A stretch of DNA of 64,000 nt from Bacteroidota bacterium (GTDB lineage: Bacteria > Bacteroidota > Ignavibacteria > UBA10030 > UBA6906). Within the stretch, counting starts at the first letter, position 1. Each line of letters opens with the position of its first letter. The notes under the pieces are model-generated. The model did no database searches. It had not been told where the DNA came from and saw only the letters and a list, made by a program, of their open reading frames with translations. Shown here in pieces: positions 478 to 58,353 of the stretch. Position numbers and translations under genes: made by a program. Where the stretch lies: positions 1 to 64,000 of the forward strand of contig JAUQWO010000025.1 in assembly GCA_030835135.1 (NCBI GenBank), written 5' to 3'.

Positions 478-3327
478 ATGTCAATAGCGAAGCGTATCAG
501 TCTGATCGTAGCCGCGGTATTGACCGTGGTTCTGCTCGTCATGTTCATCATCCTCCGGATCACCCAGGAGGACAATATGATGGCCAAAGCCCGCGACTCG
601 GTCCACCAGTCGGGCGAGGTTCTTGTCCGGTCGATCACGTCGGCCATGGGGCAGGGGGTCACGGAGGTCAAACCGCTCCTGGACAAGATGGAGGGGGTCG
701 ATGATCTCCGGGAGTTGCGGGTCCTCCCGGCGGAAGTGATCAAGACGGGTGGTGAGGCCGCCATGGACTCGATCGAACGCATGGTCATGCGCACCCAGAA
801 GGGGTTCGTTCAGGAGGAGGAGTTCAAGGGAGAGCCGGTGATCCGGTCGGTGGAGCCGATGCTTTCTGATGACGGATGCGCCGCCTGCCACGATACCAAG
901 CCAGGCACGGCACTGGCGACGATCAGCATGCGGATCTCGATGGCCAAGCACCATGCGGCCATCACCAGTGAACGGTGGCTGGTGATCGCGACCGCCGTCC
1001 CCACGATCCTCCTCACGTTCCTTGTGGTCACGTTCATGGTGAAGCGTCAGGTGGTGAAGGACCTGGCGCTCGGTGTGGCGGATCTGCGGCAACTGGCATT
1101 GGGCGATCTTTCGAATAGCCGTGAGGTGACGCGCCAGGATGAGATCGGACAACTGGGGCGGTCGATCCAGGACCTGCAGGCCAGTCTGCGCGGCAAGACC
1201 GAATCCGCCCACGCCATCGCCCAGGGTGATCTCTCCACCGAAGTGCCGGTCGCTTCGGATGCCGACGTTCTCGGCAAAGCACTGACCGAAGCGTGCATCG
1301 CATTGCGCGGGCTGGTGGCGGAAGCGGGCATGCTCTCCCGTTCCGCGGTGGAGGGCAAGCTTGCCACGCGCGGTAACGCGGAGAAGTTCCAGGGTGGGTA
1401 CCGGGAGATCGTGCAGGGTGTGAACGATACGCTGGACGCGGTGATCGGTCCGTTGAACGTGGCGGCGTCGTATGTGGAGCGGATCTCCAGGGGAGATATC
1501 CCGGCGAAGATCACGGATGATTATAGTGGTGACTTCAACGCGATCAAAGACAATCTGAACCAGGCGATCGGGGCGGTCAACGCGCTGGTGGCCGATGCCA
1601 ACATGCTGTCGCAGGCGGCCGTGCAGGGCAAGCTCGCCACCCGGGCCGATGCCTCGAAGCATCAGGGCGATTTCCGCAAGATCGTGCAGGGGGTGAACGA
1701 TACGCTCGATGCGGTGATCGGGCCGTTGAATGTGGCCGCGGAGTACGTGGACCGGATCTCGAAGGGAGATATCCCGGCGAAGATCACGGACAGCTACAAC
1801 GGTGATTTCAATGAGATCAAGAACAATCTGAACCAGGCGATCGACGCGGTCACTGCGCTGGTGGCCGATGCCCATATGCTGTCGCAGGCGGCGGTCCAGG
1901 GGAAACTCGCCACGCGGGCCGACGCGACGAAGCACCAGGGGGATTTCCGGAAGATCGTGCAGGGTGTGAACGATACGCTGGATGCGGTGATCGGCCCGCT
2001 GAACGTGGCGGCGACATACGTGGACCGGATCTCCAAGGGTGATATCCCGGCCGTGATCACAGATACGTACAACGGCGATTTCAATGAGTTGAAGAACAAC
2101 CTCAATCAGGCGATCGGGGCCGTGCATGCCCTCGTGGCGGATGCGAACATGCTCGCCCAGGCGGCAGTGGAGGGACGGCTGAAGACGCGGGCCGACGCGA
2201 CGAAGCATCAGGGCGACTTCCGGAAGATCGTGCAGGGTGTGAACGATACGCTGGATGCGGTGATCAAGCCGGTGCAGGAGGGGTCGTCCGCGCTCGCGGT
2301 GATGGCCACGGGAGACCTCACGGTGCGGATGCAGGGGGACTATCGTGGCGACCTGCAGCTCATCAAGGAGAGCATCAACAAGGTGGGTGGATCACTCGAG
2401 GAGGCTCTCCGGAAGGTGGGTGAGGCGGTGAGCGCCACGGCCAGTGCCTCGAGCCAGATCAGTTCGAGCACGGAACAGATGGCCGCCGGCGCGCAGGAGC
2501 AGACGAGTCAGGCCGGCGAGGTGGCCAGTGCGGTCGAAGAGATGACCAGCACGATCCTGGAGAACTCCAAGAACGCGAGCATCGCCGCGGAGACGGCAAA
2601 GCAGGCGCGGGTGAGCGCGGAGGCCGGCGGGAACGTGGTCGGTGCAACGGTGGACGGCATGAAGCGCATCGCGGAGGTGGTGAACAAGAGCGCAGCGACG
2701 GTGAAGGAACTCGGGAGATCTTCCGATCAGATCGGTGAGATCATCGGGGTCATCGATGACATCGCGGATCAGACGAATCTGCTGGCGCTCAACGCGGCGA
2801 TCGAGGCGGCGCGTGCCGGAGATCAGGGACGGGGCTTTGCGGTGGTGGCCGACGAGGTGCGGAAGCTTGCCGAGCGGACGACGAAGGCGACGAAGGAGAT
2901 CGCCGGGATGATCAAGAAGATCCAGTCGGACACGACGGGCGCCGTGCAGTCGATGGAGGAGGGAACGAGCGAAGTGGAACGAGGGATCGCTCTGGCCGAC
3001 AAGGCGGGCGTGAGCCTGAAGGAGATCGTGGGGGTGAGTCAGAAGGTGACGGATATGGTCACGCAGATCGCCGCGGCGAGCGAAGAGCAATCGAGCGCCA
3101 GTGAAGAGATCTCGAAGAACGTGGAAGCGATCAGCAAGGTGACGAGCGAGACCGCCCAGGGTACGCAGCAGATCGCCCATGCCGCCGAGGACCTCAACCG
3201 CCTGACGGACAATCTGCAGAGCCTCATCGCAAGGTTCAAGGTGAGAAATGGGATGGATGAAGATCCATCCGCGGCCCGACGGTCAGGTGTTGCCGTGCGT
3301 GAGAACGGATCCCTGGTAGCGGGATGA
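478..3327 (+). CDS. Methyl-accepting chemotaxis protein with periplasmic c-type haem motif and tandem HAMP array
   Basis: A 949-residue chemoreceptor. I chose the ATG at 478 because a GGGGAGAAGG ribosome site precedes it and a hydrophobic helix follows at once (residues about 7-27). The periplasmic part (about 28-166) contains CAACH at residues 134-138, the CxxCH signature for covalent c-type haem. TM2 is about 167-189, followed by HAMP and by 91-residue HAMP-type units starting at residues 281, 372, 463 and 554. The signalling domain has the conserved tip near residue 760-800 ([18 protein letters not shown]). Haem-bearing sensors of this layout are known in Geobacter MCPs and sense redox, gases or oxygen. 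That role here is inference. It lies between a near-identical MCP tail and a convergent carbonic anhydrase. Confidence 0.93.
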   Translation: MSIAKRISLIVAAVLTVVLLVMFIILRITQEDNMMAKARDSVHQSGEVLVRSITSAMGQGVTEVKPLLDKMEGVDDLRELRVLPAEVIKTGGEAAMDSIERMVMRTQKGFVQEEEFKGEPVIRSVEPMLSDDGCAACHDTKPGTALATISMRISMAKHHAAITSERWLVIATAVPTILLTFLVVTFMVKRQVVKDLALGVADLRQLALGDLSNSREVTRQDEIGQLGRSIQDLQASLRGKTESAHAIAQGDLSTEVPVASDADVLGKALTEACIALRGLVAEAGMLSRSAVEGKLATRGNAEKFQGGYREIVQGVNDTLDAVIGPLNVAASYVERISRGDIPAKITDDYSGDFNAIKDNLNQAIGAVNALVADANMLSQAAVQGKLATRADASKHQGDFRKIVQGVNDTLDAVIGPLNVAAEYVDRISKGDIPAKITDSYNGDFNEIKNNLNQAIDAVTALVADAHMLSQAAVQGKLATRADATKHQGDFRKIVQGVNDTLDAVIGPLNVAATYVDRISKGDIPAVITDTYNGDFNELKNNLNQAIGAVHALVADANMLAQAAVEGRLKTRADATKHQGDFRKIVQGVNDTLDAVIKPVQEGSSALAVMATGDLTVRMQGDYRGDLQLIKESINKVGGSLEEALRKVGEAVSATASASSQISSSTEQMAAGAQEQTSQAGEVASAVEEMTSTILENSKNASIAAETAKQARVSAEAGGNVVGATVDGMKRIAEVVNKSAATVKELGRSSDQIGEIIGVIDDIADQTNLLALNAAIEAARAGDQGRGFAVVADEVRKLAERTTKATKEIAGMIKKIQSDTTGAVQSMEEGTSEVERGIALADKAGVSLKEIVGVSQKVTDMVTQIAAASEEQSSASEEISKNVEAISKVTSETAQGTQQIAHAAEDLNRLTDNLQSLIARFKVRNGMDEDPSAARRSGVAVRENGSLVAG
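1318..2409 (+). repeat. Four 273-bp coding units of tandem HAMP domains in MCP1
   Basis: In-frame units begin at 1318, 1591, 1864 and 2137, exactly 273 bases (91 residues) apart. Each opens with an A-D-A-N-M-L-S-Q-type motif and contains [20 protein letters not shown] and [14 protein letters not shown]. The last unit keeps its first half, then switches to the terminal HAMP ([18 protein letters not shown]). Such poly-HAMP arrays relay signals between membrane and kinase-control domain. DNA similarity between units is high enough to permit copy-number change. Confidence 0.85.
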
Positions 3328-3352
3328 TGGGTGGAAGGGGCGGCCCACAACG

Positions 3353-3387
3353 AACGGCGCGTACGGGAAGACCCCGTACGCGCCGTT
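3353..3387. terminator. Strong hairpin between convergent genes, probable bidirectional terminator
   Basis: A perfect 15-bp stem (AACGGCGCGTACGGG pairing with its complement) with a 5-base loop sits 25 bases after the MCP stop and about 75 bases beyond the stop of the convergent carbonic anhydrase. Flanking CACAAC (3346-3351) could also pair with GTTGTG (3385-3390). There is no long T-run on either side, so efficiency is uncertain, but position and stem strength fit transcription termination from both directions. Confidence 0.65.
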
Positions 3388-3461
3388 GTGTATCATGCCG
3401 ATGATCCTCTGTCCCGTTGAACGATCCACGCGCTGAGCCGGGTGTTCCGGGGACGCTGCAC

Positions 3462-4373
3462 TCAGTGTTCCTGCTTTCTCTTCTCCGCGGTGGCGGGGAC
3501 AGGTGCCGGTGCTGCATGGGATGCACCGGCGTGGGTCCCGGATGAGGCTCCCTCGAGGAATGTCACACCGCCGGTCGTCAGACTGTAGGTCGCTCCGAGG
3601 ATGCGGAGGTGGCCCTCGTCAACCATGGACTTCAGGAGTGCACTCTGTCCGGTGACCTGGGCAACCTGATAGCGGACATTCTCGTGAATGCAGACGCTGT
3701 CGATCCTGACGCCCTTGAGATGTTGCGCTTTCACCTTCTCAACCGGCGGTGAGATGCGTTGGACGATCTGGCCGATGTTGGGGGGCACTTCTCCGCCCTT
3801 GATCGTAGCATTCACCGCGCCACATGCCTCGTGTCCCAGAACGACCAGGAGTCCGGCGTGGAGATGTTCGGCGGCATATTCGATGCTGCCGAGGACCACC
3901 GGGTCCACGACGTTGCCGGCATCGCGGACCACGAACAGTTGTCCGAGCGATTCATCGAACAGCAGTTCAGGCGGGACGCGTGAATCGGAGCAGGTCAGGA
4001 TGATGGCATACGGATGCTGCCCTGCGGTCAGGGCCGGTCGCTCGTGCACGAAGTCCCGGGCAGCGGTCCTTCCTTCCACGAACCGGCGGTTGCCGTCCAG
4101 CAGGCGCGCCACCGGGTCGTTGCTCACCGCGTGCCCGCCGGGTTCATGCGATGCGGTTGCGCCGGTCTGCACCGATCCTGGCTGTGTTGCCGAGAGCTCG
4201 GACCGCAATTGGTTCACGGCCGCCTTCCGGGCGCGTTCCTCTTCCGCGAGCATCTTCGTAAGGCGTTCTTCCATCCGCTGCACGATGTCGATCACCTTCC
4301 GGTAATCCTGTGCGCCTGCCGCGGTGTGTACAACGGCGACCATGATGAGGACTGCAAGTCCACGGCGTCCCAT
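3462..4373 (-). CDS. Secreted beta-class carbonic anhydrase
   Basis: A 303-residue protein that reversibly hydrates CO2 to bicarbonate. The chosen ATG (complement of 4371-4373) has AAAGGA upstream and starts a clear signal peptide (MGRRGLAVLIMVAVVHTAAG), so the enzyme is predicted to act in the periplasm. A charged, coiled-coil-like stretch (about 24-60) precedes the catalytic domain. Zinc ligands and partners of beta enzymes are visible: C128-S-D130-S-R132, then H181-E-A-C184. The C-terminal tail is rich in Ala, His and Pro. It is the only minus-strand gene in the window, convergent with MCP1 and divergent from MCP2. A link to CO2 or pH sensing by those receptors is only inferred. Confidence 0.93.
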   Translation of the reverse strand: MGRRGLAVLIMVAVVHTAAGAQDYRKVIDIVQRMEERLTKMLAEEERARKAAVNQLRSELSATQPGSVQTGATASHEPGGHAVSNDPVARLLDGNRRFVEGRTAARDFVHERPALTAGQHPYAIILTCSDSRVPPELLFDESLGQLFVVRDAGNVVDPVVLGSIEYAAEHLHAGLLVVLGHEACGAVNATIKGGEVPPNIGQIVQRISPPVEKVKAQHLKGVRIDSVCIHENVRYQVAQVTGQSALLKSMVDEGHLRILGATYSLTTGGVTFLEGASSGTHAGASHAAPAPVPATAEKRKQEH

Positions 4374-5026
4374 GACACGTATCCTTTCGTCTGGTGGTTT
4401 CCATGATCCCGCGCCTTCCGGTGACGGCGGGAACAGGGAGTGGGCCCGACATTCTCCCAGCATGGGGTTCAAGATACATGCCAGTCATGGAAGAGAACGG
4501 TGGAGAAGTGGAACTCCGGCAAAGTGCGCGATCTGAAGTGAATTGAGGCCGTCCGGAACCGTCAGGCCACGGCGCTGAGACGGGTGCCAAGTCCGCTAAG
4601 TCTCGCAATATGAAGGATATTGGACTCCTGGCCAACAGTGTTGACGGGGATTCCTTGAGCGCATTATGGAACGGGGGATGACCTTATGTAGGGGGGTGAG
4701 TACCCTCATGGATTCCCGGCGGAGTGCGGGGTCAGTGCTGCACCATTATCAGGTTTTGATGGCAATTGACAGAGACTGGTGACAGAGAACAGAGGAGGGC
4801 ATGTGGTCATATTTAGTCACCGTTCGGCAGGCCTTGAATCCAAGAGTCCTTCCTCTCGTTGAGCAGAAATGCTAATCGCTTGATGTTCTTGATGTTACAG
4901 CAGGTGTGGGGCCGGGGGCTCCCGGAGGATTTTTGGTACACTGCTTGCGCACAAAATCGGTGCGAAATAGCGTCGTCATCCGTTGGGGCGGGGATGCGGC
5001 ATCACAAAATATCAGGAGATACTCCA
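4374..5026. other. Long intergenic region between divergent carbonic anhydrase and MCP2
   Basis: This 653-base stretch is the longest gene-free DNA here and has no credible ORF with a ribosome site; reading frames extending upstream of the MCP2 ATG lack initiation signals. It holds promoters for two divergent genes. Small inverted repeats include GGGT-GAGT-ACCC (4692-4703) and CCGGG-GGCT-CCCGG (4912-4925) just before the sigma-54-like site at 4934. TTGACG at 4641 and TTGACA at 4766 lack convincing -10 partners. A small RNA cannot be excluded. Confidence 0.55.
4934..4949 (+). promoter_or_regulatory. Sigma-54 (RpoN)-type promoter for MCP2
   Basis: TGGTAC-N5-TTGC matches the -24/-12 consensus TGGCAC-N5-TTGC with one change and correct spacing (GG to GC). 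It lies 78 bases upstream of the chosen MCP2 ATG, giving a plausible leader of roughly 65 bases. A short GC hairpin and TTTT lie directly upstream. Sigma-54 control of chemotaxis and flagellar genes is common; an enhancer-binding activator is not visible nearby. Confidence 0.6.
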
Positions 5027-7933
5027 ATGGCTCGACTGAAGGATTGGTCGCTGCAGGTCAAACTTCTTGTCGCCTTCGCACTGGTCGCGGCGATCACGAT
5101 AGCGGTAGGATATGTGGGGATCAGCACGGCACAGCAGCTTGTGGACGCAGACAAGGAATTGTTCGACGACAAGACGACACCTCTCACGCACATCGCGGAC
5201 GCGCGCGAGGCATTCCACAAGACCCGTCATCAGTTGCTGGTCCTCGTTCTGGCAAAGACCTCCCAGGATCGCCAGGCACCGCTGGATGCGATCAAGCGGA
5301 ACGTTGAGGTCTACGAAGCGGCGATGGCAGAATTCGGGAAGACGATGGACTCTGAAGCGGGTCAGAAACTCTTCAATGCATACAAGGAAGAGTACGGGGT
5401 CTACGCGCCACTCCGGGAGCTGTTCATCGAACTCGTGAAGGCCGGCAAATCCGATGAGGCCTTTGCCCTCATGAAGAAGGAAGGCAACGCGGCGGTCAAG
5501 AAACTGGATGAACGGCTCATCTCGTTCCAGGCGCGCAAGGCGGATGGCGCGAAGGAACTCCATGAGGAAACAGAAGCCCTTGCCGAACGTTCTGACCTCA
5601 TCATGATGGTGTCGATCATCGTGGCGGTCATTCTTTCCGTGGCATTGGGGCTGGCGTTGACACGTGCGATCGCGCGTCCGGTGAACCAGGTGATCGAGGC
5701 CGCCAATGCGGTCGTTCGGGCCAACAAGGAACTCACCGACGCCGCAACGCGGATCGCTGCAGGCGATACGGACGTGCATCTGGGCGAGAGTGCGTCGCGG
5801 ATCGGGCTGGCACGTGAGGATGAGATCGGCAAGCTGGGCACGGTGGTCGATGAACTCGTCGACTCGCAGCAGGCGCTCCGTACGTCGTTCACCGGCATCG
5901 CGGGCACGCTCACGGATCTCGTGACCGAGGCCAACACCCTCTCGAAGGCAGCAGTGGACGGCAAGCTTGCCACGCGCGGGAACGCGTCGAAGTTCCAGGG
6001 TGGCTATCGCGAGATCGTGCAGGGTGTGAATGATACGCTGGACGCGGTGATCGGTCCCCTCAACGTTGCCGCGGAATATGTGGACCGGATATCGAAGGGC
6101 GACATCCCGGCGGCGATCACGGACAGCTACCATGGCGATTTCAATGAGATCAAGAACAACCTGAACCAGGCGATCGGGGCCGTGCACGCCCTTGTTGCCG
6201 ACGCCAACATGCTGTCGCAGGCGGCCGTGCAGGGCAAGCTCGCCACCCGGGCCGATGCCTCAAAGCATCAGGGCGATTTCCGGAAGATCGTGCAGGGCGT
6301 GAACGAAACACTGGATGCTGTGATCGGACCTTTGAACGTGGCCGCGGAGTATGTGGACCGCATCTCCAAGGGTGATGTCCCGGCGAAGATCACGGACAGT
6401 TACAACGGTGATTTCAATGAGATCAAGAACAACCTGAATCAGGCGATCGATGCGGTCACGGCGCTGGTGGCCGACGCGAAGATGCTGTCTCAGGCGGCCG
6501 TGGACGGGAAGCTTGCCACGCGCGCGGATGCTTCGAAGCATCAGGGCGACTTCCGCAAGATCGTGGAAGGCGTGAACAATACCCTTGATGCGGTGATCGG
6601 GCCACTCAACGTCGCGGCGGAGTACGTGGACCGGATCTCCAAGGGCGACATCCCGGCGAAGATCACGGACAGTTACCATGGCGACTTCAATGAGATCAAG
6701 AACAACCTGAACCGGGCGATCGATGCCGTGAACGCGCTCGTGGCGGACGCGAACATGCTTGCCCAGGCGGCAGTGGAGGGACGGCTGAAGACGCGTGCCG
6801 ACGTCGCGCGGCATGAAGGCGACTTCCGGAAGATCGTCCAGGGGGTCAACGAGACACTGGATGCGGTGATCAAGCCGGTGCAGGAAGGGTCCAGCACCCT
6901 GGCCGTCATGGCCACGGGTGACCTTACGGTGCGGATGCAGGGGGACTATCGTGGCGACCTCCAGCTCATCAAGGAGAGCATCAACAAGGTCGGCAGTTCC
7001 CTCGCCGATGCCCTCCGCAAAGTGAGCGAAGCCGTGAGCGCCACGGCGACCGCGTCGACGCAGATCAGCTCAAGCACCGAAGAAATGGCCGCGGGGGCGC
7101 ACGAACAGACGAGCCAGGCCGGTGAAGTGGCGAGCGCGGTCGAGGAGATGACCACCACGATCATGGAGAACTCCAAGAACGCGAGTGTTGCCGCCGAGAC
7201 CGCGAAGCAGGCGCGCATCAGCGCGGAGCAGGGTGGACAGGTGGTCGGCGAGACGGTGGACGGTATGCGGCGCATCGCCGAGGTGGTGAACAAGAGCGCC
7301 CAGACCGTGAAGGAGCTGGGGCGGTCGTCGGACCAGATCGGCGAGATCATCGGGGTCATCGACGACATCGCGGACCAGACGAATCTCCTGGCCCTCAATG
7401 CCGCGATCGAAGCAGCCCGTGCGGGCGAGCAGGGACGCGGCTTCGCGGTGGTGGCGGACGAAGTGCGGAAGCTTGCCGAGCGGACGACCAAGGCGACGAA
7501 GGAGATCGCCGGCATGATCAAGAAGATCCAATCCGACACGACCGGCGCGGTGCAGTCGATGGAAGAAGGCACCAACGAGGTGGAGCGGGGGATCGAACTC
7601 GCGGACAAGGCGGGTGCGAGCCTGAAGGAGATCGTCGGGGTGAGCCAGAAGGTGACGGACATGGTCACCCAGATCGCGGCGGCGAGCGAGGAGCAGTCGA
7701 GCGCGAGCGAGCAGATCTCGAAGAATGTCGAGGCCATCTCGAAGGTGACGGGTGAAACGGCACAGGGGACGCAACAGATCGCGCGCGCGGCGGAGGGTTT
7801 GAACCAGCTGACCAACACGCTGCAGAGCCTTGTCGGACAGTTCCGTGTGGATCGTGGCGCCGGCGCGAGCGCGCAGGGTCCGGGGCGGTCCGGTGTTGCC
7901 GTCAAGGAAGATGGCGCCCTTGTGGCGCATTGA
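5027..7933 (+). CDS. Methyl-accepting chemotaxis protein with 4-helix-bundle sensor and tandem HAMP array
   Basis: A 968-residue chemoreceptor. Start at ATG 5027 is supported by AGGAG eight bases upstream and an immediate N-terminal TM helix (about 12-32). The alpha-helical periplasmic part (about 33-189) looks like a 4HB_MCP sensor and lacks the CxxCH of its neighbour. TM2 is about 190-214, then HAMP and 91-residue HAMP-type units from residue 300. The signalling domain closely resembles MCP1, with the tip [18 protein letters not shown] around residue 783. It is followed 48 bases later by cheW, probably cotranscribed. A sigma-54-like promoter precedes it. Ligand unknown. Confidence 0.94.
5924..7015 (+). 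repeat. Four 273-bp coding units of tandem HAMP domains in MCP2
   Basis: Units begin at 5924, 6197, 6470 and 6743, the same 273-base period and unit number as in MCP1, and they share long near-identical segments with it. As in MCP1 the fourth unit switches after about 45 residues to the final HAMP and signalling helix. The shared period and number point to duplication of the whole receptor body with exchange of sensor domains. Confidence 0.85.
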
Positions 7934-7981
7934 CGGATGAAATTCACTCGATCGAGAGTTTGACAACCAAGGAGGAGTAGC

Positions 7982-16964: not shown

Positions 16965-17315
16965 ATGGGACTGATCAGTCTGAATGATATCAAGCCGGGA
17001 ATGAAACTGGCTGCCGAGGTGAAGGACCGCGCAGGCCGGACGCTGCTGGCGGCAGGCCAGGAGATCACGGAAAAGCACCTGAAGATCTTCAAGACCTGGG
17101 GGGTCACGGATGCCAATATCGAGGGGGCATCGCAGGAAGATATGGTCTCCCAGGATCTGGTGGATGTGGATCCCGAGATCCATGCGAAGGCCGAGGAGTT
17201 CATTCTGGCGAAGTTCCGCCATGCGGGAACGACCCATCCCGGTCTGAAAGAACTTGCACGCCTTGCCACCATGCGGCGGGTGCGCGAAATGACGGAGGGT
17301 GGCCATGGAAATTAG
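16965..17315 (+). CDS. Small DUF3391-like protein preceding HDOD
   Basis: A 116-residue soluble protein. Its first 50 residues (LNDIKPGMKLAAEVKDRAGRTLLAAGQEI) resemble the small beta domain found before HD-GYP domains (DUF3391-like). The rest is helical with no catalytic motif. ATG 16965 has AAGGGAA nearby. The end overlaps the HDOD gene by 11 bases, so the two are translationally coupled and may form one functional unit. Function not known. Confidence 0.7.
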   Translation: MGLISLNDIKPGMKLAAEVKDRAGRTLLAAGQEITEKHLKIFKTWGVTDANIEGASQEDMVSQDLVDVDPEIHAKAEEFILAKFRHAGTTHPGLKELARLATMRRVREMTEGGHGN

Positions 17316-18156
17316 TCCGCGTGACCTGCTCAAAGGCTATGTGGAGGTCTCCTCATTGCCGATGATCCACCTCCGGCTCGAGGAGGCGATCAACAATCAG
17401 AACAAGTCGATGTCCGACATCGCGAAGGTCATCCGTGAGGACCCCGGCCTGACCGCACGGCTGCTCCGCATCGTGAACAGTGCGTTCTACAACTTCCCGT
17501 CCAAGATCGAGACGATCTCGCAGGCTGTCACGATCGTCGGCACCCAGCAGCTCAGCGCGCTCGCCCTCGCGACATCGGTGATGAAGATGTTCAAGGGGTT
17601 GCCGCAGAACCTGGTGAGCATGGACTCCTTCTGGCGGCACAGCATTGCGTGCGGTCTCGCCGCGCGTATGATCGGGTCGCTCCGGCGGGAGACCAAACCG
17701 GAACGGTTCTTCGTGGCGGGCATGCTGCACGACATCGGCCGGTTGATCATGTACACGAAGCTCACCGACCCGATGAAGGAGATCCTGGATACGGCGGCAA
17801 AGCAGCAAACCCTGCTCTACGAAGAGGAGCGCACCAGACTCGGGTTCACCCATGCGGTCGTCGGAGGCATCCTGTTGCAGACGTGGAAGTTGCCGACCAG
17901 CCTGGAAGAGATCGTGATGTATCATCACAACCCGAAAGCTGCCACGCGCTATCCGATGGAGACCGCCATGGTGCACGTCGCTGATATCATCGTGCATTCG
18001 ATGGGCCTCGGCAGCAGCGGCGAAGTGTTCGTGCCGCCGCTCGACAACGAGGCGTGGGACAAACTCGGGCTGTCGCCCAGCGTGATGTCGAGCGTGGAGG
18101 AACAGGTCGACCGGCAGTATCAGGACGCGCTTCAGACCATGTTGACGGACATGTGA
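17305..18156 (+). CDS. HDOD domain signalling protein
   Basis: A 283-residue HDOD-family protein. The domain covers nearly the whole chain: [44 protein letters not shown] and a retained HD pair in MLHDIG. ATG 17305 is preceded by GGAGGG; a GTG at 17299 is an alternative. HDOD proteins lack established enzymatic activity and act as scaffolds in signalling and motility. It starts inside the DUF3391-like gene and ends one base before a hybrid kinase, so it likely acts with that kinase. Three further HDOD proteins lie at 52.8-55.8 kb. Confidence 0.9.
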
Positions 18157-50935: not shown

Positions 50936-51767
50936 TCAGGCAACAGGGATGCGCGCACTGATGCGGGGGTATGCCGATGCCGGCCGGCCCGCGCGTCCGT
51001 ATCTGCTGACCATCACCAGCGGGAAAGGCGGCGTGGGTAAGAGCACGGTCGCCCTCAATGTCGGTCTTGCACTTGCAAAGCTCGGGAAGAAGGTGCTGCT
51101 GGTCGATGCCGATGCGAATCTGGCAGGTCTGGATGTCATGGCGGGTGTGGCACCGCGATTCCGTCTCGGCGATGTGTTGCGCGGCGATCAGGATGTGGAC
51201 AGTGTTCTTGTGACCCTGGCACCGGGACTGCAACTCCTCCCCGGGAGCAGCGGCGACCCGTCGTATCCGCAGCCGACGATCGGTGAACAGGAGGCATTGC
51301 TTGCGGAGGTCATGGACCGTGAGGAGCACGTGGATGTGGTGATCATCGATACGGCGGCAGGGCTCACGCCCGAGATCATCCGGTACGGCGAAGAAGCGGA
51401 CAGTGTGCTGGTGGTCACGACGCCGGAACCGACCGCGGTCATGGATGCCTATGCGATGATCAAGGTGCTCGGGCTGAATGCGCCCGGACAGATGGTGGAG
51501 CTGGTGATCAATACTGCGCGGACGATACGGGATGGTGAGGAGACGTACACGAAGATCCGTGCGGCGATCCAGCATTTCCTCGGTCGCGAGGTGGCGTGTG
51601 CCGGTATCATCCCGGCGGATGTGCGGGCGGGCGAAGCGATCCGCGGCCAGAAGGCGCTGGTGAGTGCGTTCCCGCATTGCGCGGCGGCGCTCTCGCTGCA
51701 GTCGCTGGCCCGGACGATCCTTCGTGATCATGTTCATGCATCGATCCATCGGACGGTGGCGTTATGA
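50928..51767 (+). CDS. flhG: MinD-like ATPase FlhG (FleN/YlxH)
   Basis: A 279-residue ATPase. The N-terminal DQATGMRAL matches the DQAxxLR helix by which FlhG activates FlhF. Deviant Walker A SGKGGVGKS follows at 31-39, with DADANLAGLDVM and IIDTAAGL further on. ATG 50928 overlaps flhF by eight bases. It limits flagellar number with FlhF and, in some species, restrains the flagellar master regulator. Confidence 0.95.
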   Translation: MHDQATGMRALMRGYADAGRPARPYLLTITSGKGGVGKSTVALNVGLALAKLGKKVLLVDADANLAGLDVMAGVAPRFRLGDVLRGDQDVDSVLVTLAPGLQLLPGSSGDPSYPQPTIGEQEALLAEVMDREEHVDVVIIDTAAGLTPEIIRYGEEADSVLVVTTPEPTAVMDAYAMIKVLGLNAPGQMVELVINTARTIRDGEETYTKIRAAIQHFLGREVACAGIIPADVRAGEAIRGQKALVSAFPHCAAALSLQSLARTILRDHVHASIHRTVAL

Positions 51768-52042
51768 CGAAAGTGATGTTTCAGATCGGATTGCTGGCCT
51801 TCTTCGTGTCGGCCGTGATCTTCGGTTCCCAGGGGATGCCGGTGATGGCTGCCGTTGCCCGCGCCTTCATCGTCTTCATCGCGGTGGTGGCAGGCCAGAT
51901 CGTCGTGCTCGTCGTGGCGAGCAGCATGAAACGGCAGCCGCACCCGACAGCACCGGTCGTCGCACAGTCGTCCCGCAGTGAGGAGGGGGCTGCGGAGGAT
52001 CAGGAACCCCCAACAACGCAGACATCCGCTTCGGCGGCGTGA
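51764..52042 (+). CDS. Small two-helix membrane protein
   Basis: A 92-residue protein with two predicted TM helices (about 5-24 and 28-52) and a hydrophilic Ser/Thr/Glu/Ala-rich tail. It overlaps flhG by four bases and precedes fliA by 18, so is cotranscribed. No family recognised. It could help tether a neighbour such as FlhG or FliA regulators to the membrane, which is speculative. Confidence 0.65.
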   Translation: MTKVMFQIGLLAFFVSAVIFGSQGMPVMAAVARAFIVFIAVVAGQIVVLVVASSMKRQPHPTAPVVAQSSRSEEGAAEDQEPPTTQTSASAA

Positions 52043-52060: not shown

Positions 52061-52816
52061 ATGCACACAACGGCACAGCACCTGTGGGATGAGTTCCTCC
52101 AGCACCGGAGTCCGGAGCTGAAGCGGAAGCTCGTTGTCCAGTATCTGGACCTCGTCCGCTATGTCGTGTCCAAGTACAACCTGCACCTGCAGGCGCGCTC
52201 CCAGGGGTTGGAATTCGACGATGTCGTGCACTTCGGCATCCTCGGATTGTTGACGGCGGTGGACCGGTTCCTTCCGGCGCAGAACGTGAAGTTCGAGACC
52301 TATGCGGTGCCCCGGATCCGCGGTGCGATCCTGGATGAAATGCGGAAGCTGGACTGGGTGCCGCGGTCGGTCCGTGAAACGTCCCGGAAAGTGGGGAAGG
52401 CCGCCCACGAGGTGGCACAGGAACATGGCCGGGAGCCGCTGGAGGAGGAGATCGCAGGAAAACTGGAACTCTCGCTGGAAGAGTACCACAAGCTCATCGG
52501 TGGCGGGAATGCGGTCCCCGCCCGTGATGCAGAGTATATGATTGACAGTGAGAGTGCGGAAGCACTCGACGCGGCGCCCTCGGATGGTCCGAGTCCGTTT
52601 GACCGGATCAGCGAGCAGGAGACCAGGGCGATCCTGGTCGAAGCCGTGGAGCGGTTGTCGGAGCGTGACCGGACCGTCATCGCGCTCTATTATTATGAGG
52701 GGTTGAAATTCACTGAGATCGCGAAGGTGCTCTCGATCTCCGAAGGCAGGGTGTCGCAGATCCACTCAGAGGTATTGAGATCATTGCGCAACAAACTCGT
52801 GACGATGGAAGCATGA
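52061..52816 (+). CDS. fliA: Flagellar sigma factor FliA (sigma-28)
   Basis: A 251-residue sigma factor of the FliA/WhiG group. Region 2 includes DLVRYVVSKYN and FDDVVHFGILGLLTAVDRF...FETYAVPRIRGAILDEMRKLDWVPRSVR; region 3 spans about 105-150; region 4 is residues 191-248 (52631-52804). It would transcribe late genes such as flagellin and receptors. ATG 52061 lies 18 bases after the small membrane protein gene. Its stop overlaps the first HDOD-sigma4 gene. Confidence 0.96.
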   Translation: MHTTAQHLWDEFLQHRSPELKRKLVVQYLDLVRYVVSKYNLHLQARSQGLEFDDVVHFGILGLLTAVDRFLPAQNVKFETYAVPRIRGAILDEMRKLDWVPRSVRETSRKVGKAAHEVAQEHGREPLEEEIAGKLELSLEEYHKLIGGGNAVPARDAEYMIDSESAEALDAAPSDGPSPFDRISEQETRAILVEAVERLSERDRTVIALYYYEGLKFTEIAKVLSISEGRVSQIHSEVLRSLRNKLVTMEA

Positions 52817-53901
52817 AAACGAACCAGCAGACAGCCGGCATCACGTTCGAACACCGGGCATTGGATACGGGAGCGTCCTTCCCGTTCAAGGCACGTGTGA
52901 TGGAGTACGTGGTGGATCTCGTGAACGACCCGGGTGCTTCGGCCTCCCGGCTTGCGGCGGTGATCGGATGGAACCCCATCCTCTTCCGCTCGTTGTCTGC
53001 CTCCGCGAATTCCGCGTTCGGATTGCCGGGGCGGGTCCGCGACGTCAATCTGGCTGTCGGCCTCCTGGGTGCCCAGCGGGTGAAAGACACCGTGAAGTGG
53101 GCGGTGGCCGGGCGAGCCACGCGCCATATCGCGAACAGCTTTCATATGTGCGAACCCCTGTGGAATCACTCGCTGCTCTGCGCCCTCGTGTCGCGGGCAG
53201 TGGCGCTCGAGACCGGATACGCCGACCCGAACCGGGCATTGATCGCGGGGCTCGTGCACGATATCGGCTTTCTGTTCCTCGCGGAAGACCTCCCCTCTCC
53301 CGAAGTCGACGCGATCCATGACTGGGACACGGAGGATGAGAACGGACCGATGGGCATGGACCAGCAGGCACGGATGCACGAAGAAGCGGGGTCGTGGATG
53401 CTGGACAGGTGGGAAACGCTCGATCCCGCGATCCGGGATGCTGTGCGCCATCATCATGCACCGGGCGGGAACGAGACCGATCCCGGGCTTGCCGCGATCG
53501 TGCACGTCGCCGACGTGATCTGTCACCGCTTGTTCGGCGGTCCTCCGGGCAGCAAGCCTCGGACCCTTTTCTCGGCCAATGCGCTGCTCACCCTCGGCCT
53601 CCAGCCGGGGAACAAGGGCAAGAAGGGGGACGACCCGGCCGTGCTGCTGGAAACCCGGATCACTCACCGCGCACCGGCACTGGAGTTGAAAGCCCGCGTC
53701 CTCCGTGAGGATCTCGTCAACACGTACGAAGAGCTGGAAGAGCGCGAACGGCTTGTCATCGCGCTGCACTATTTCGAGGGGATGTCCCTCATCCGCATCG
53801 CGGGCATGATCGGGGTGTCGCGGGCGGATGTGGATGTCCTCCACCGCCGGGCCGTGACTGGCGTGGCGGAGATGCTGGCTGGATTCGGAGAATGGTCATG
53901 A
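52813..53901 (+). CDS. HDOD protein with C-terminal sigma-70 region 4-like domain (copy 1)
   Basis: A 362-residue protein. HDOD domain occupies about 20-260: LSASANSAFGLPGRV, WNHSLLCALVSRAVA, HD pair H149-D150 in GLVHDIG and HVADVICHRL. Residues 300-358 (53710-53886) align without gaps to FliA region 4, with about 19 identities in 58 by eye (EERERLVIALHYFEGMSLIRIAGMIGVS). No sigma region 2 or 3 is present. Most basic residues of the FliA recognition helix are replaced, suggesting protein rather than DNA contact. ATG 52813 overlaps the fliA stop by four bases. Function unknown; control of FliA activity is inferred from context. Confidence 0.88.
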   Translation: MKTNQQTAGITFEHRALDTGASFPFKARVMEYVVDLVNDPGASASRLAAVIGWNPILFRSLSASANSAFGLPGRVRDVNLAVGLLGAQRVKDTVKWAVAGRATRHIANSFHMCEPLWNHSLLCALVSRAVALETGYADPNRALIAGLVHDIGFLFLAEDLPSPEVDAIHDWDTEDENGPMGMDQQARMHEEAGSWMLDRWETLDPAIRDAVRHHHAPGGNETDPGLAAIVHVADVICHRLFGGPPGSKPRTLFSANALLTLGLQPGNKGKKGDDPAVLLETRITHRAPALELKARVLREDLVNTYEELEERERLVIALHYFEGMSLIRIAGMIGVSRADVDVLHRRAVTGVAEMLAGFGEWS

Positions 53902-54938
53902 CCGTCAGGGCGGCCAGAGCGAACGAGCCGGAGAGCGCAACCGTGACCCGGCCAGCAGACCAGGCGCCATTGCTGGAACAGGTGCTCGAGCTCATGCGCG
54001 ATCCCGCGTCGAGCGTGTCGCAGCTCGGCGCCGTCGTTGCGACGGACCGTGATCTCAGCGAACGCATCATCCAGCGTGCGAATTCGCCGGTCCTGGAAAT
54101 GCCATCGCGCGTGGCAACCGTCTCCGAAGCCATCACCGTGCTGGGCTTCGATGCCCTGCGCGATACGCTGATGCGCATGGTGGTCTCCGGTGCACTGCAG
54201 ACCGTTGTGACCCTGTTCTCGCAGTATGAACAGTTCTGGCGTCATTCGATCGCATGCGGACTGGCGTCCCGGTTGCTTGCCCGCAAACACAAACTGGTCC
54301 ATCCAACGGATGCATTCATCGCCGGATTGTTCCATGATCTCGGATTGCTCATCCCGGCGGGTGCGGTGGATGGTTCGATCCGGTCGGTGCTGCAGAAGTC
54401 GCGGCCGGCCGGCTCGCCCGAGGATCATGAGCAGGCCGGGGCTGCCCTCGTGGAGCGTTGGGGCCTGGGCGCGCGCATCGTGGAAGCAGTGCGGTGCCAT
54501 CACCAGCCCGCCGCGGCCGTCGCCGATCCGGCGCTCACGGCCACGGTCCACATTGCGGATGTGCTCTGTCACCGGATGGAGATCGGGGCGTACGGCGCCG
54601 ATCATGTCGGGACGATCGCGCCGGGTGCGCTGGCGCTGCTCGGACTGACGGAAGAGGACCTTGTGGTGGAGCGGCTCACGGAAGAGACCGCACTGCTGAA
54701 GCATGATCTGGAACAAGCCCCGTCGTTCGACCGCCTGGTGTCCGCACTACGGTTGTCGCTGGTGGAGGCGGTCGGCAAGCTGCCGTATCAGGAACGGCTG
54801 GCACTTGCCCTCTGCTACCAGGAGGGGTTGACAATGGGGGAGGTCGCGAACCTGATGGGTGTGACCGAACCCGAAGCACGTCAGGTCCACGACAATGCCC
54901 TGGGCCGGCTTGCATCGATCATTCATGACTGTGTCTGA
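53898..54938 (+). CDS. HDOD protein with C-terminal sigma-70 region 4-like domain (copy 2)
   Basis: A 346-residue protein from ATG 53898, which overlaps the previous stop (ATGA) and has GGAG eight bases upstream; ATG 53892 would add two residues. The HDOD part shows [42 protein letters not shown] and HIADVLCHRME. The C-terminal 60 residues (54753-54935) align to FliA region 4 with about 20 identities in 58 by eye (LPYQERLALALCYQEGLTMGEVANLMGVTE). It is diverged from copy 1, so the fusion is old or arose twice. Likely a signalling protein acting on transcription of flagellar genes. Confidence 0.87.
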   Translation: MTVRAARANEPESATVTRPADQAPLLEQVLELMRDPASSVSQLGAVVATDRDLSERIIQRANSPVLEMPSRVATVSEAITVLGFDALRDTLMRMVVSGALQTVVTLFSQYEQFWRHSIACGLASRLLARKHKLVHPTDAFIAGLFHDLGLLIPAGAVDGSIRSVLQKSRPAGSPEDHEQAGAALVERWGLGARIVEAVRCHHQPAAAVADPALTATVHIADVLCHRMEIGAYGADHVGTIAPGALALLGLTEEDLVVERLTEETALLKHDLEQAPSFDRLVSALRLSLVEAVGKLPYQERLALALCYQEGLTMGEVANLMGVTEPEARQVHDNALGRLASIIHDCV

Positions 54939-54956: not shown

Positions 54957-55832
54957 ATGATGTCACCCGAGACAATAAAGGAAAAGGTCCAGACGATCAT
55001 CCAGCTGCCGGCGCTGCCGACGATCGCGATGGAGATCGTCGATCTGGTCGACAACCCGAAGACCAGCGCATCGAAGCTTGGGAAGCTGATCTCGACCGAT
55101 CAGGCCCTGACGGCCAAGGTGCTCAAGATCGCGAATTCGCCGTTCTACGGCTTCCCGCGGAAGATCTCGACCATCGACTTTGCGATCATCGTCCTGGGCT
55201 ACGATGCCCTGAAAGAGATCGTGATCTCGATCTCGCTCGTGAGTTCGCTGCAGAAGAAGGGTGATGCGATGTTCGATGCCAAGGGGTTCTGGGACCATGC
55301 CATCATGAGCGGCGTGCTCGCGCGGCGCCTGGCCCGTGACCTCGGCTACCGTGTGTCGGGCGAGGTTTTCGTTGGCGGATTGCTCCACGATATGGGTGTC
55401 TCGGTCCTTCACCGGTACTTCAAGAGCGAACATAAGCGGATCATGGAGATCGTCCGTGAGACCGATCTGACGGCCCTGGAGGCGGAAGAGAGCGTTCTCG
55501 GCGTGACGCACGCCGAGGTCGGTGGCTGGCTTGCCGAACGGTGGAACCTGCCGAGCCATCTGGTGGAAGCGATCTCCATGCACCATACGCCGGGCAGGGC
55601 GGAGAACAACAAGGAGCTTGTTGCGCTGATCCACTGTGCGGACGTGTTTGCCGGGCGCATGGCGGCGCAGACGGTGGAGTTCGACAAAGGGATCGATTTC
55701 GATCAGGAGGCGCTGAACCGTCTCCAATTGACGGATGCAGCGGCACTGCAGGATTACATGGAGAATTACCGGGAGCTCGTGAAGGGCGACCTGGAAGCGG
55801 TCACACAGTTTGAACAGACGCGGGAGGCGTGA
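54957..55832 (+). CDS. HDOD domain protein without sigma-like domain
   Basis: A 291-residue, classic HDOD protein: LPALPTIAMEIVDLVDNP, KVLKIANSPFYGFPRKISTI, FWDHAIMSGVLARRLA, GGLLHDMG and AISMHHTPG. It ends with a short acidic tail and lacks the sigma4-like extension of its two upstream neighbours. Tandem ATG codons at 54957 and 54960. The end overlaps a histidine kinase gene, so it may modulate that kinase, as seen for HDOD-kinase pairs elsewhere. Confidence 0.92.
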   Translation: MMSPETIKEKVQTIIQLPALPTIAMEIVDLVDNPKTSASKLGKLISTDQALTAKVLKIANSPFYGFPRKISTIDFAIIVLGYDALKEIVISISLVSSLQKKGDAMFDAKGFWDHAIMSGVLARRLARDLGYRVSGEVFVGGLLHDMGVSVLHRYFKSEHKRIMEIVRETDLTALEAEESVLGVTHAEVGGWLAERWNLPSHLVEAISMHHTPGRAENNKELVALIHCADVFAGRMAAQTVEFDKGIDFDQEALNRLQLTDAAALQDYMENYRELVKGDLEAVTQFEQTREA

Positions 55833-57211
55833 CCATTACGTCGGCCATGGAACACGGGACCAAACGAAAGAATCGGACGCAATTGCTGGAGGAAGGCCTT
55901 CCGCAGTTCGAACAGTTCATCGAGAGCCGTGAGAACTACATCAAGGCCCTCGAGAAGACGATCGACGTGCTGCGGGCGGAGAATGTCCAGTTCACACAGA
56001 ACAATCTGGCGATCCGCAGTTCGATCGATGAACTGGTCGCCACCCAGCGTCTCTCCAACATCATCAGCACCGCCACGGAACCCGAACTGATCGTGAGCGC
56101 GTTGATCGAGCTGACCCGGCAGGTGATCCCCGTGCTGGACTGCAACATCTTCCTGTTCCACACGACCTCGGGCAAGCTGCTCCCGTTGTCCTCGAAGGGT
56201 GCGCCACGTCTGCAGGCCGAAGCCGAGCACCAGCTCGAGGCCGGCATCGTGGACTGGGTGATCGCCGAGAAGAAGACCGTCATCATCCCGGACCTGGAGC
56301 ATATGCTCGCGAAGTCGAGCGCGCGCAACTTCGTGATCGTTCCGCTCATTCTCCGGTCCCAGGGGATCGGGATCTTCATCATCCATACCGAGAAGCCGCA
56401 GCAGGAGTTCTCGAACCAGGACATCCAGCTGCTGTCGGTGCTGGCGAACCAGACGGCCGTGGGGGTGGAGAACTGGCGGACGTACAAGCAGCTCCTCAAG
56501 GCGAACGAGGAGCTCAAGGCCTCGCAGGCCCAGATGGTGCAGGCCGCAAAGCTGGCGGCGATCGGCGAACTGGCGGCAGGCATCGCGCACGAGATCAAGA
56601 ACCCCCTGCAGGTGCTCATGCTCCACCTCGAACTCGTCCAGGCCGGCAGGCCCCTGCCGAACTGGATCGAGATGTTCAGCAAACAGCTCAAGCGCCTGTC
56701 GGATATCACCCTGCGCCTGATGAACTTCTCGCGCAATGCCTCCGAAGAGGTGACCGCGGAACCGATCGATGTCAACCGCGCGATCGAAGATATCGTCATG
56801 ATGGTCCAGCATGAGTTCGAAGGGAATGGGATCGACATCGAGCAGAGCCTTGCGCAAGATCTGCCGCCGGTCGGCGGGAATGGGAACTATCTGCAGCAGG
56901 TGTTCCTGAACCTGCTCATCAACGCCCGCGATGCGATGCCGAAGGGGGGCACAGTGGCGGTGTCCACCAGTCTCACCGGGTTCCACGTGTGCATCCGCTT
57001 CACGGACACGGGCACGGGCATCGCGAAGGACCTGCAGGAGAAGATCTTCAAACCGTTCTTCAGCACGAAGGGCGACAAGGGGACCGGGCTCGGGCTCGCG
57101 ATCTGCAGCAAGATCATCGCGCAGCACAAGGGGGATATCAGGGTTGAAAGTGAGATCGGCAAGGGTACGACGTTCACCATTTTTCTGCCAGTGTGGAGAG
57201 GAACACGATGA
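55829..57211 (+). CDS. GAF histidine kinase of NtrB/FleS type
   Basis: A 460-residue soluble kinase. N-terminal coiled coil (about 15-70), GAF domain (about 75-225), HisKA with GIAHEIKNPLQVL, then HATPase with NARDAMPKGG, DTGTGI and GTGLGLAI. The HEIKNPL box and lack of an attached receiver resemble NtrB, AtoS and FleS kinases that feed NtrC-family sigma-54 activators. This suits the sigma-54-like flagellar promoters here, but no such activator is encoded in the window. GTG 55829 overlaps the HDOD stop; ATG 55847 is an alternative. Confidence 0.9.
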   Translation: MTITSAMEHGTKRKNRTQLLEEGLPQFEQFIESRENYIKALEKTIDVLRAENVQFTQNNLAIRSSIDELVATQRLSNIISTATEPELIVSALIELTRQVIPVLDCNIFLFHTTSGKLLPLSSKGAPRLQAEAEHQLEAGIVDWVIAEKKTVIIPDLEHMLAKSSARNFVIVPLILRSQGIGIFIIHTEKPQQEFSNQDIQLLSVLANQTAVGVENWRTYKQLLKANEELKASQAQMVQAAKLAAIGELAAGIAHEIKNPLQVLMLHLELVQAGRPLPNWIEMFSKQLKRLSDITLRLMNFSRNASEEVTAEPIDVNRAIEDIVMMVQHEFEGNGIDIEQSLAQDLPPVGGNGNYLQQVFLNLLINARDAMPKGGTVAVSTSLTGFHVCIRFTDTGTGIAKDLQEKIFKPFFSTKGDKGTGLGLAICSKIIAQHKGDIRVESEIGKGTTFTIFLPVWRGTR

Positions 57212-58353
57212 GATCGGTCGTTTGCACGTTGGTCCTAACAGTGGTGCTGGGTGTGCCGGGCACGGCATGGGCCCAGGAGATGTCGGTATTGAACACCGTC
57301 AGCGCCTCGGTCGTGGGCGGACATACGCGCGTTGCGTTCCGGTTCGCGGGTGATGTCCGATTTTCCACCGAACCGGCCAAGAATGGCGTGCGGATCGTGT
57401 TCTCCCGAACGCGTCCGGCATCGACGCCGGTGCTGAGCCGCCGGCTGCTCAACGCAGGGCCCCTCGAAAGCATCGGCTTCCATCGCCCCGCTATGGACAG
57501 CATCATTGCGGTGCTCGCGTTCGTGCAGGGGAGCACCTACCGGTGCGTGTGCCCGGCAAGTGGCAATGAACTGTATGTGGATGTGAACGGGAGTGCTGCG
57601 GTGCGTCAGGTGCCCGTGGCGAAACCCGCCCCGGCGAAACCCGCCCCCGCACCGGTGGTCGCGGCCCAAGCGCAGCAGCAGGCACCCGAACAGGCCCGCC
57701 CTGCCGGCGGATCGTCGCTGATCGACATCCCCGGTGTCGCACGGATGCAGATGGAACGCGAGAGCGCCACAGCAACACGACGCACCGGAGGGTCAACATC
57801 CCTGACAATGCCCGTCCTCGTGGCGGTCAGTGTTGGTGTGAGCCTGGCCATCACGGCGGTCGCCCTGCTGCTTCTTGCGAAGACGATGCAGCGTGAGCCC
57901 GCGCCCGCCCCGACCCCGGTCGTTACAGCGGCCGCGCGGCCGAAGGCAGGCATCGCGGCCCAGGTGAAGGCGTACCAGCAGCAGCCGGTGCTCCCGGAAC
58001 CGGAAGAAGATGATGATATGAAGCCGGAACCTGAGAGGGTCCGGGCACTCTTCAATGCCCCGGTGCGGGAAGAAGAACCGGACGAGGATGCCGGCCGCGA
58101 GACCTCCCTGCAGCTGGCCCGGACGTTCCGGCGCGGGAGCGAGGAGATCACGCTCGCCCGGAAATTCCACGAACGGCCCTCACCGGCATTGACGCCGGCG
58201 AAGATGCAGACCGTCATGGCGCGCGCGACGACCAAGAGTCAGCGCCTGACGGCAGCGCGGAAGCTCGGTGTGGGCCGCGGTGAGTTTGACCTGGCAGAGA
58301 AACTGAAGGCACTGTCGCAGCCACCGGTAACGAACGAGGAGAAGCGGGGATGA
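57208..58353 (+). CDS. Periplasmic AMIN-like protein with central transmembrane helix
   Basis: A 381-residue protein. Signal peptide (about 1-21, ending AWAQ), then an AMIN-like beta domain (about 22-120; VSASVVGGHTRVAFRFAGDVRFST). An Ala/Pro linker leads to a TM helix (about 200-225; MPVLVAVSVGVSLAITAVALLLLA). The cytoplasmic tail (about 230-381) is acidic then basic with repeated LARTFRRGSEEI and LARKFHERP-like motifs. AMIN domains target proteins to peptidoglycan or secretin complexes. Its start overlaps the kinase stop and its stop overlaps flgF, so a flagellar role is likely. Confidence 0.72.
   Translation: MRSVVCTLVLTVVLGVPGTAWAQEMSVLNTVSASVVGGHTRVAFRFAGDVRFSTEPAKNGVRIVFSRTRPASTPVLSRRLLNAGPLESIGFHRPAMDSIIAVLAFVQGSTYRCVCPASGNELYVDVNGSAAVRQVPVAKPAPAKPAPAPVVAAQAQQQAPEQARPAGGSSLIDIPGVARMQMERESATATRRTGGSTSLTMPVLVAVSVGVSLAITAVALLLLAKTMQREPAPAPTPVVTAAARPKAGIAAQVKAYQQQPVLPEPEEDDDMKPEPERVRALFNAPVREEEPDEDAGRETSLQLARTFRRGSEEITLARKFHERPSPALTPAKMQTVMARATTKSQRLTAARKLGVGRGEFDLAEKLKALSQPPVTNEEKRG

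Follow-up and report, generated by a model that had tools for sequence, protein, structure and literature searches.

The anti-sigma factor FlgM wraps the flagellar sigma factor FliA and blocks the RNA-polymerase-binding determinants of sigma regions 2 and 4 (PMC4598750). The sigma mimic PhyR binds an anti-sigma factor (PMC4598750), and HsbA of Pseudomonas aeruginosa sequesters FlgM, freeing FliA (PMC5085249). HDOD proteins alter motility in Pseudomonas, Xanthomonas and Campylobacter, without a known output (PMC11813219, PMC11004494). Here we describe two genes directly behind fliA, each encoding an HDOD domain joined to a sigma region 4 (sigma4). In the literature that we searched, which left most subscription journals outside, we found no description of an HDOD–sigma4 protein; an earlier reading of the same DNA, made from the sequence alone, had likewise named no precedent for this architecture.

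An HDOD–sigma4 gene pair behind fliA

The window, that is, the whole stretch of 64,000 nucleotides that we analysed, comes from the genome of an uncultured bacterium and carries these features:

52061–52816, + strand: fliA, encoding sigma-28 (Pfam regions 2, 3 and 4; NCBIfam FliA_WhiG above its cut-off)
52813–53901, + strand: protein A, an HDOD–sigma4 fusion of 362 amino acids (open reading frame and Pfam)
52891–53463, + strand: HDOD domain of A, residues 27–217 (Pfam)
53704–53877, + strand: sigma region 4 of A, residues 298–355 (Pfam, alignment to FliA and model)
53892–54938, + strand: protein B, an HDOD–sigma4 fusion of 348 amino acids (open reading frame and Pfam)
53970–54509, + strand: HDOD domain of B, residues 27–206 (Pfam and predicted model)
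54750–54923, + strand: sigma region 4 of B, residues 287–344 (Pfam, predicted fold and PDB sequence search)
54957–55832, + strand: HDODc, a conserved single-HDOD protein found in every such cluster examined (Pfam)
55829–57211, + strand: GAF–HisKA histidine kinase, the gene after HDODc, conserved in the cluster (Pfam)

The coordinates, reading frames and HDOD–sigma4 architecture that the sequence-only reading gave for positions 52813–54938 are confirmed. The fliA stop codon overlaps the start of A in the ATGA at 52813–52816. Translation of B may begin at the ATG at 53898 rather than at 53892, because the former provides an ATGA overlap with the stop codon of A and agrees with the start in a relative. 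The genes lie in the order flhB-flhA-flhF-flhG-small membrane protein-fliA-A-B-HDODc-GAF histidine kinase-orf-flgF-flgG-flgA-flgH-flgI, and the flagellar cluster around fliA is kept in flagellated members of the order. HDODc is likely to be a partner of the HDOD–sigma4 module.

flhG and fliA are separated by a gene for a small membrane-like protein (51764–52042), which is conserved across the class and matches no Pfam family. The interval between the GAF kinase and flgF holds a fast-evolving protein of unknown family (57193–58353) that can be recognised in many of the order's clusters. Away from the fliA cluster, the window encodes another strong HDOD protein (17299–18156), followed by a 727-amino-acid open reading frame.

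The C-terminal domains derive from a FliA-type region 4

Both HDOD domains are unambiguous by score, with E = 4e-30 and 105 bits for A and E = 1.3e-39 and 136 bits for B against a cut-off of 22.9 (Pfam PF08668). Sigma70_r4 is matched by residues 307–348 of A (33.2 bits; cut-off 24.1) and by residues 294–340 of B (32.7 bits, also above the Pfam cut-off). Neither protein has a Pfam match to Sigma70_r2 or Sigma70_r3 at E values up to 10, which bears out the earlier statement that region 2 is missing from both and, region 2 being absent, rules out A or B as a functional, short sigma-70 factor.

Gap-free alignment of the tails of A and B to the neighbouring FliA region 4 gives scores of 101 and 99, whereas the best of 2000 shuffles reached 48 and 41. 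The gapless alignment of about 58 residues had been noted before; identity is 36% for each tail, or about 21 of 58 positions, slightly above the 19 and 20 counted by eye. A search of the PDB with the last 69 residues of B returned only FliA and WhiG proteins as its first seven matches, headed (at E = 1.6e-8) by P. aeruginosa FliA, WhiG, E. coli FliA and Aquifex FliA. FliA_WhiG is also the best NCBIfam model for the tail of B; for that of A, the general sigma70 model comes first, slightly above FliA in second place. Other helix-turn-helix (HTH) families score lower than region 4, and the shuffled alignments and the PDB search rule out a chance HTH similarity.

AlphaFold2 models of A and B contain four high-confidence helices in the tail, with the HTH scaffold intact. 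In Foldseek, 54–55 residues of the B model align to SigD region 4 at 0.8 Å, and VIA-align 2 matched residues of about 280–348 of B to WhiG, sigma-28 and many region 4 domains. The predicted tail structure is thus that of region 4. Alignments, profile searches and predicted models together show that the tails derive from a FliA-type region 4, for which the adjacent fliA is the probable source. The homology proposed in the sequence-only reading stands on fold prediction, on PDB and NCBIfam searches and on comparative genomics, and the two comparisons that it named, of fold and of score against unrelated HTH families, both come out in its favour.

The HDOD fold of B has 3hc1 as its best match (Z = 14.0). 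Because the residues of an H...HD...D pattern (H118, H148, D149 and mostly D223 of B) are retained across the fusions, ligand or metal binding by the HDOD domain is possible.

A variable slot between fliA and HDODc

A neighbourhood comparison of the kind suggested in the earlier reading shows that HDOD–sigma4 proteins recur behind fliA in related genomes. We surveyed the interval from fliA to HDODc in 27 related flagellar clusters of the order and found a sigma4 protein in 12. Eight genomes encode the full fusion (G000, G001, G009, G029, G035, G045, G456 and G464), which is doubled in the window's genome (G000) and in G001 and single in the other six. Two genomes have an N-terminal half-HDOD with sigma4 (G015 and G038), and two have a free sigma4 protein of 93–100 amino acids (G010 and G016). 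In the remaining 15 of the 27 clusters the slot between fliA and HDODc is empty. One genome of the window's own genus, G002, has no fusion; the 142 bases between its fliA and HDODc (L061, 7825–7966) translate without a detectable remnant.

In a more distant lineage, all ten genomes of genus g47 (family f10) carry a 389-amino-acid HDOD–sigma4 protein in the slot. In two genomes, belonging to families f7 and f14, a plain HDOD protein occupies the slot, giving the order fliA-HDOD-HDOD-kinase (L211, 5958–7735; L212, 5870–7645), and in several other families fliA directly adjoins HDODc. From the plain-HDOD slots and the free sigma4 proteins, it appears that region 4 was added to an HDOD protein sitting behind fliA and that it can outlive the HDOD domain in some relatives. 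Across the phylum samples, the fusion was seen in this class only. A search of genome contigs with the HDOD stretch returned only three already-sampled genomes and HDOD-only proteins, and the viral contigs searched contained no fusion.

The trees separate the HDOD domains of the main fusion clade from HDODc (100/100) and place the split between A and B before the split of the genera. The half-fusion of G015 clusters with A, and the sigma4 of B is grouped with the two free sigma4 proteins (G010 and G016). In G038, the HDOD falls among the HDODc proteins and the sigma4 next to the genome's own FliA (96/83); this fusion looks to have been made anew, independently in both domains, although holding it with the other fusions is not rejected (p-AU = 0.165). 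The g47 fusions also fall outside the main clade in the HDOD trees, whereas a single sigma4 origin for the two is not rejected (p-AU = 0.505). With shared origins not rejected by either value, three independent origins are unsupported. The fusion may have formed in two steps: fliA-HDOD would have been duplicated in tandem, and an in-frame deletion would then have joined HDOD to the second region 4. We put forward, with some reserve, a history in which HDOD–sigma4 mimics arose in this slot one or more times, probably at least twice, bringing the flagellar sigma/anti-sigma checkpoint under HDOD control, and in which some lineages were reduced to a free region-4 protein that would act alone.

Retained residues and candidate partners

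As a reference for conservation we used 27 FliAs, in which 17 positions of region 4 are at least 89% invariant, and compared 14 sigma4 copies of the order. The eight invariant positions in helices 1–2 are kept in 78% of cells and the five in the recognition helix in 40% (column permutation p = 0.019, the related sequences not being independent). L21 is kept in 14 of 14 copies, L11, Y23 and E25 in 13 and R16 in 12 to 14, and the motif ALxYYEGL is conserved. Given this site-specific pattern, the predicted fold and the comparative genomics, the tails probably act through protein contact, whichever the partner, and the preference of the sequence-only reading for a protein–protein role over DNA binding is upheld.

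We lean towards A and B being mimics of FliA region 4 that bind FlgM, the polymerase flap or both under HDOD control. Production of A would be coupled to fliA translation, the ATGA overlap being visible in the DNA. The kept helix 1–2 half of region 4 would bind FlgM, and perhaps also the beta-flap, in competition with FliA, and the HDOD domain, together with the neighbouring HDODc and GAF histidine kinase, would set the availability of the mimic. A cell signal could then free FliA from FlgM, or hold FliA back, apart from the hook-completion checkpoint.

Our choice of FlgM as the favoured partner is tentative. Of the 27 genomes of the order, 26 encode a divergent FlgM-like protein, as do nearly all the other genomes that we checked, which makes the FlgM decoy of the sequence-only reading plausible; the protein is just as frequent without the fusion as with it, and FlgM is thus not a dedicated partner of the fusion. 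Because FlgM also grips sigma2, sigma4 alone might bind it weakly. The window's genome encodes two FlgM-like paralogues (C7:35642 and C7:32675), which we call divergent because both score below the Pfam and NCBIfam cut-offs. Each lies behind a flagellin gene and a gene that we take to be FlaF-like. A second FlgM paralogue was found only in G000, G001 and G010, all of which have a sigma4 protein (3 of 12 genomes versus 0 of 15); at p = 0.075 this is a trend, and a strict tie between FlgM number and the fusion is set aside. The stretch L124 (G000:C7:28000–44000) contains, at 3322–7942, two flagellins, two FlaF-like proteins, the two FlgM paralogues and an FlbT-like protein, an apparent duplication of a flagellin-flaF-flgM cassette.

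Alternatively, sigma4 may bind the beta-flap and make A and B HDOD-controlled, anti-sigma-like competitors or co-regulators of the FliA holoenzyme, with no FlgM decoy. The retained residues lie in helices 1–2, the half that lies away from the promoter-reading helix; since the region 4 determinants for polymerase binding are those that FlgM covers (PMC4598750), the flap might use this face too. Indeed, the putative FlgM surface, which we based on the general statement in PMC4598750, is the flap-binding surface, so the sequence does not separate the two partners. This alternative would also suit the overlap of A with fliA and the persistence of free sigma4 proteins. We nevertheless regard it as unlikely, given that FlgM co-occurs throughout and that low affinity for core polymerase is expected without region 2.

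The recognition helix bears on whether A and B are instead DNA-binding regulators, in which the sigma4 HTH brings HDOD either to −35 elements of the FliA type or to new sites. The models preserve the HTH scaffold, but among the 14 order copies R42 and R55 are each kept in one (absent in 13), Q45 in four (absent in ten) and E40 in four, and mean net charge is −3.2 against +1.2 for FliA. The loss of basic residues claimed earlier for this helix holds by position, with R42, R52, R55 and K57 replaced in both A and B, although A has new basic residues nearby. The g47 copies keep L11, R16, L21, E25 and L27 in 10 of 10; Q45 and H47 are not kept and Y22 and Y23 are replaced. Because R or K at position 42 is mostly kept in these copies (9 of 10) and their charge is positive, DNA contact by the g47 domain is possible. 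For A and B, we judge a DNA-binding role to be improbable.

The g47 sigma4 has a dN/dS of 0 to 0.025 at dS of 0.4 to 1.05, as low as that of FliA, and is under strong purifying selection; for the sigma4 of B compared with G001, dN/dS is about 0.2, with dS nearly saturated. Patchy presence, fast evolution and the many relatives without a sigma4 protein might suggest that a tandem duplication left the tail behind as an unselected remnant, accidentally fused to an HDOD domain that does the work, but these dN/dS values, the conserved motif and the survival of free sigma4 proteins after loss of HDOD make such a degenerate tail the least probable explanation.

Comparison with known systems

WhiG, whose anti-sigma factor RsiG is c-di-GMP-bound, has a region 4 of the FliA/WhiG family, which the tail of B matches in both structure and sequence; RsiG, unlike A and B, is an anti-sigma factor and not a sigma mimic. 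The motility regulators GsmR, Cj0248, PSPTO_4229 and SadB share the HDOD domain and the link to motility, but neither a sigma region 4 nor a position after fliA is described for them in the literature searched. If our preferred reading of A and B as region-4 mimics is true, it would offer a molecular target for HDOD, which is widespread and has been linked to motility more than once, and a new way of controlling flagellum building, and it is amenable to tests with small purified proteins. HsbA is of the STAS type. Like the role proposed here, the HsbA–FlgM switch has a signal-controlled protein hold FlgM and free FliA, but HsbA is described as a phosphorylation-switched anti-anti-sigma factor, with neither sigma mimicry nor HDOD.

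In PhyR-NepR-EcfG, the alphaproteobacterial general stress response, a non-functional sigma-like piece is likewise joined to a signalling domain and draws off an anti-sigma factor, as we propose for A and B. PhyR has both sigma2- and sigma4-like parts of the ECF type, N-terminal and with a receiver domain, whereas A and B have region 4 only, of the FliA type, C-terminal, with HDOD and beside a flagellar operon. They have no receiver and no region 2, and the PhyR sigma-like profile matches B only at E = 0.07. If binding to FlgM or the flap holds, A and B would thus work like PhyR, yet with a different sigma family and not as members of its type. Beside the well-known mimicry of PhyR, they would then represent a second, separately evolved kind, built from the flagellar sigma factor, and would suggest that cells can, as a general strategy, couple a signal to a sigma/anti-sigma pair by copying one of their own sigma domains.
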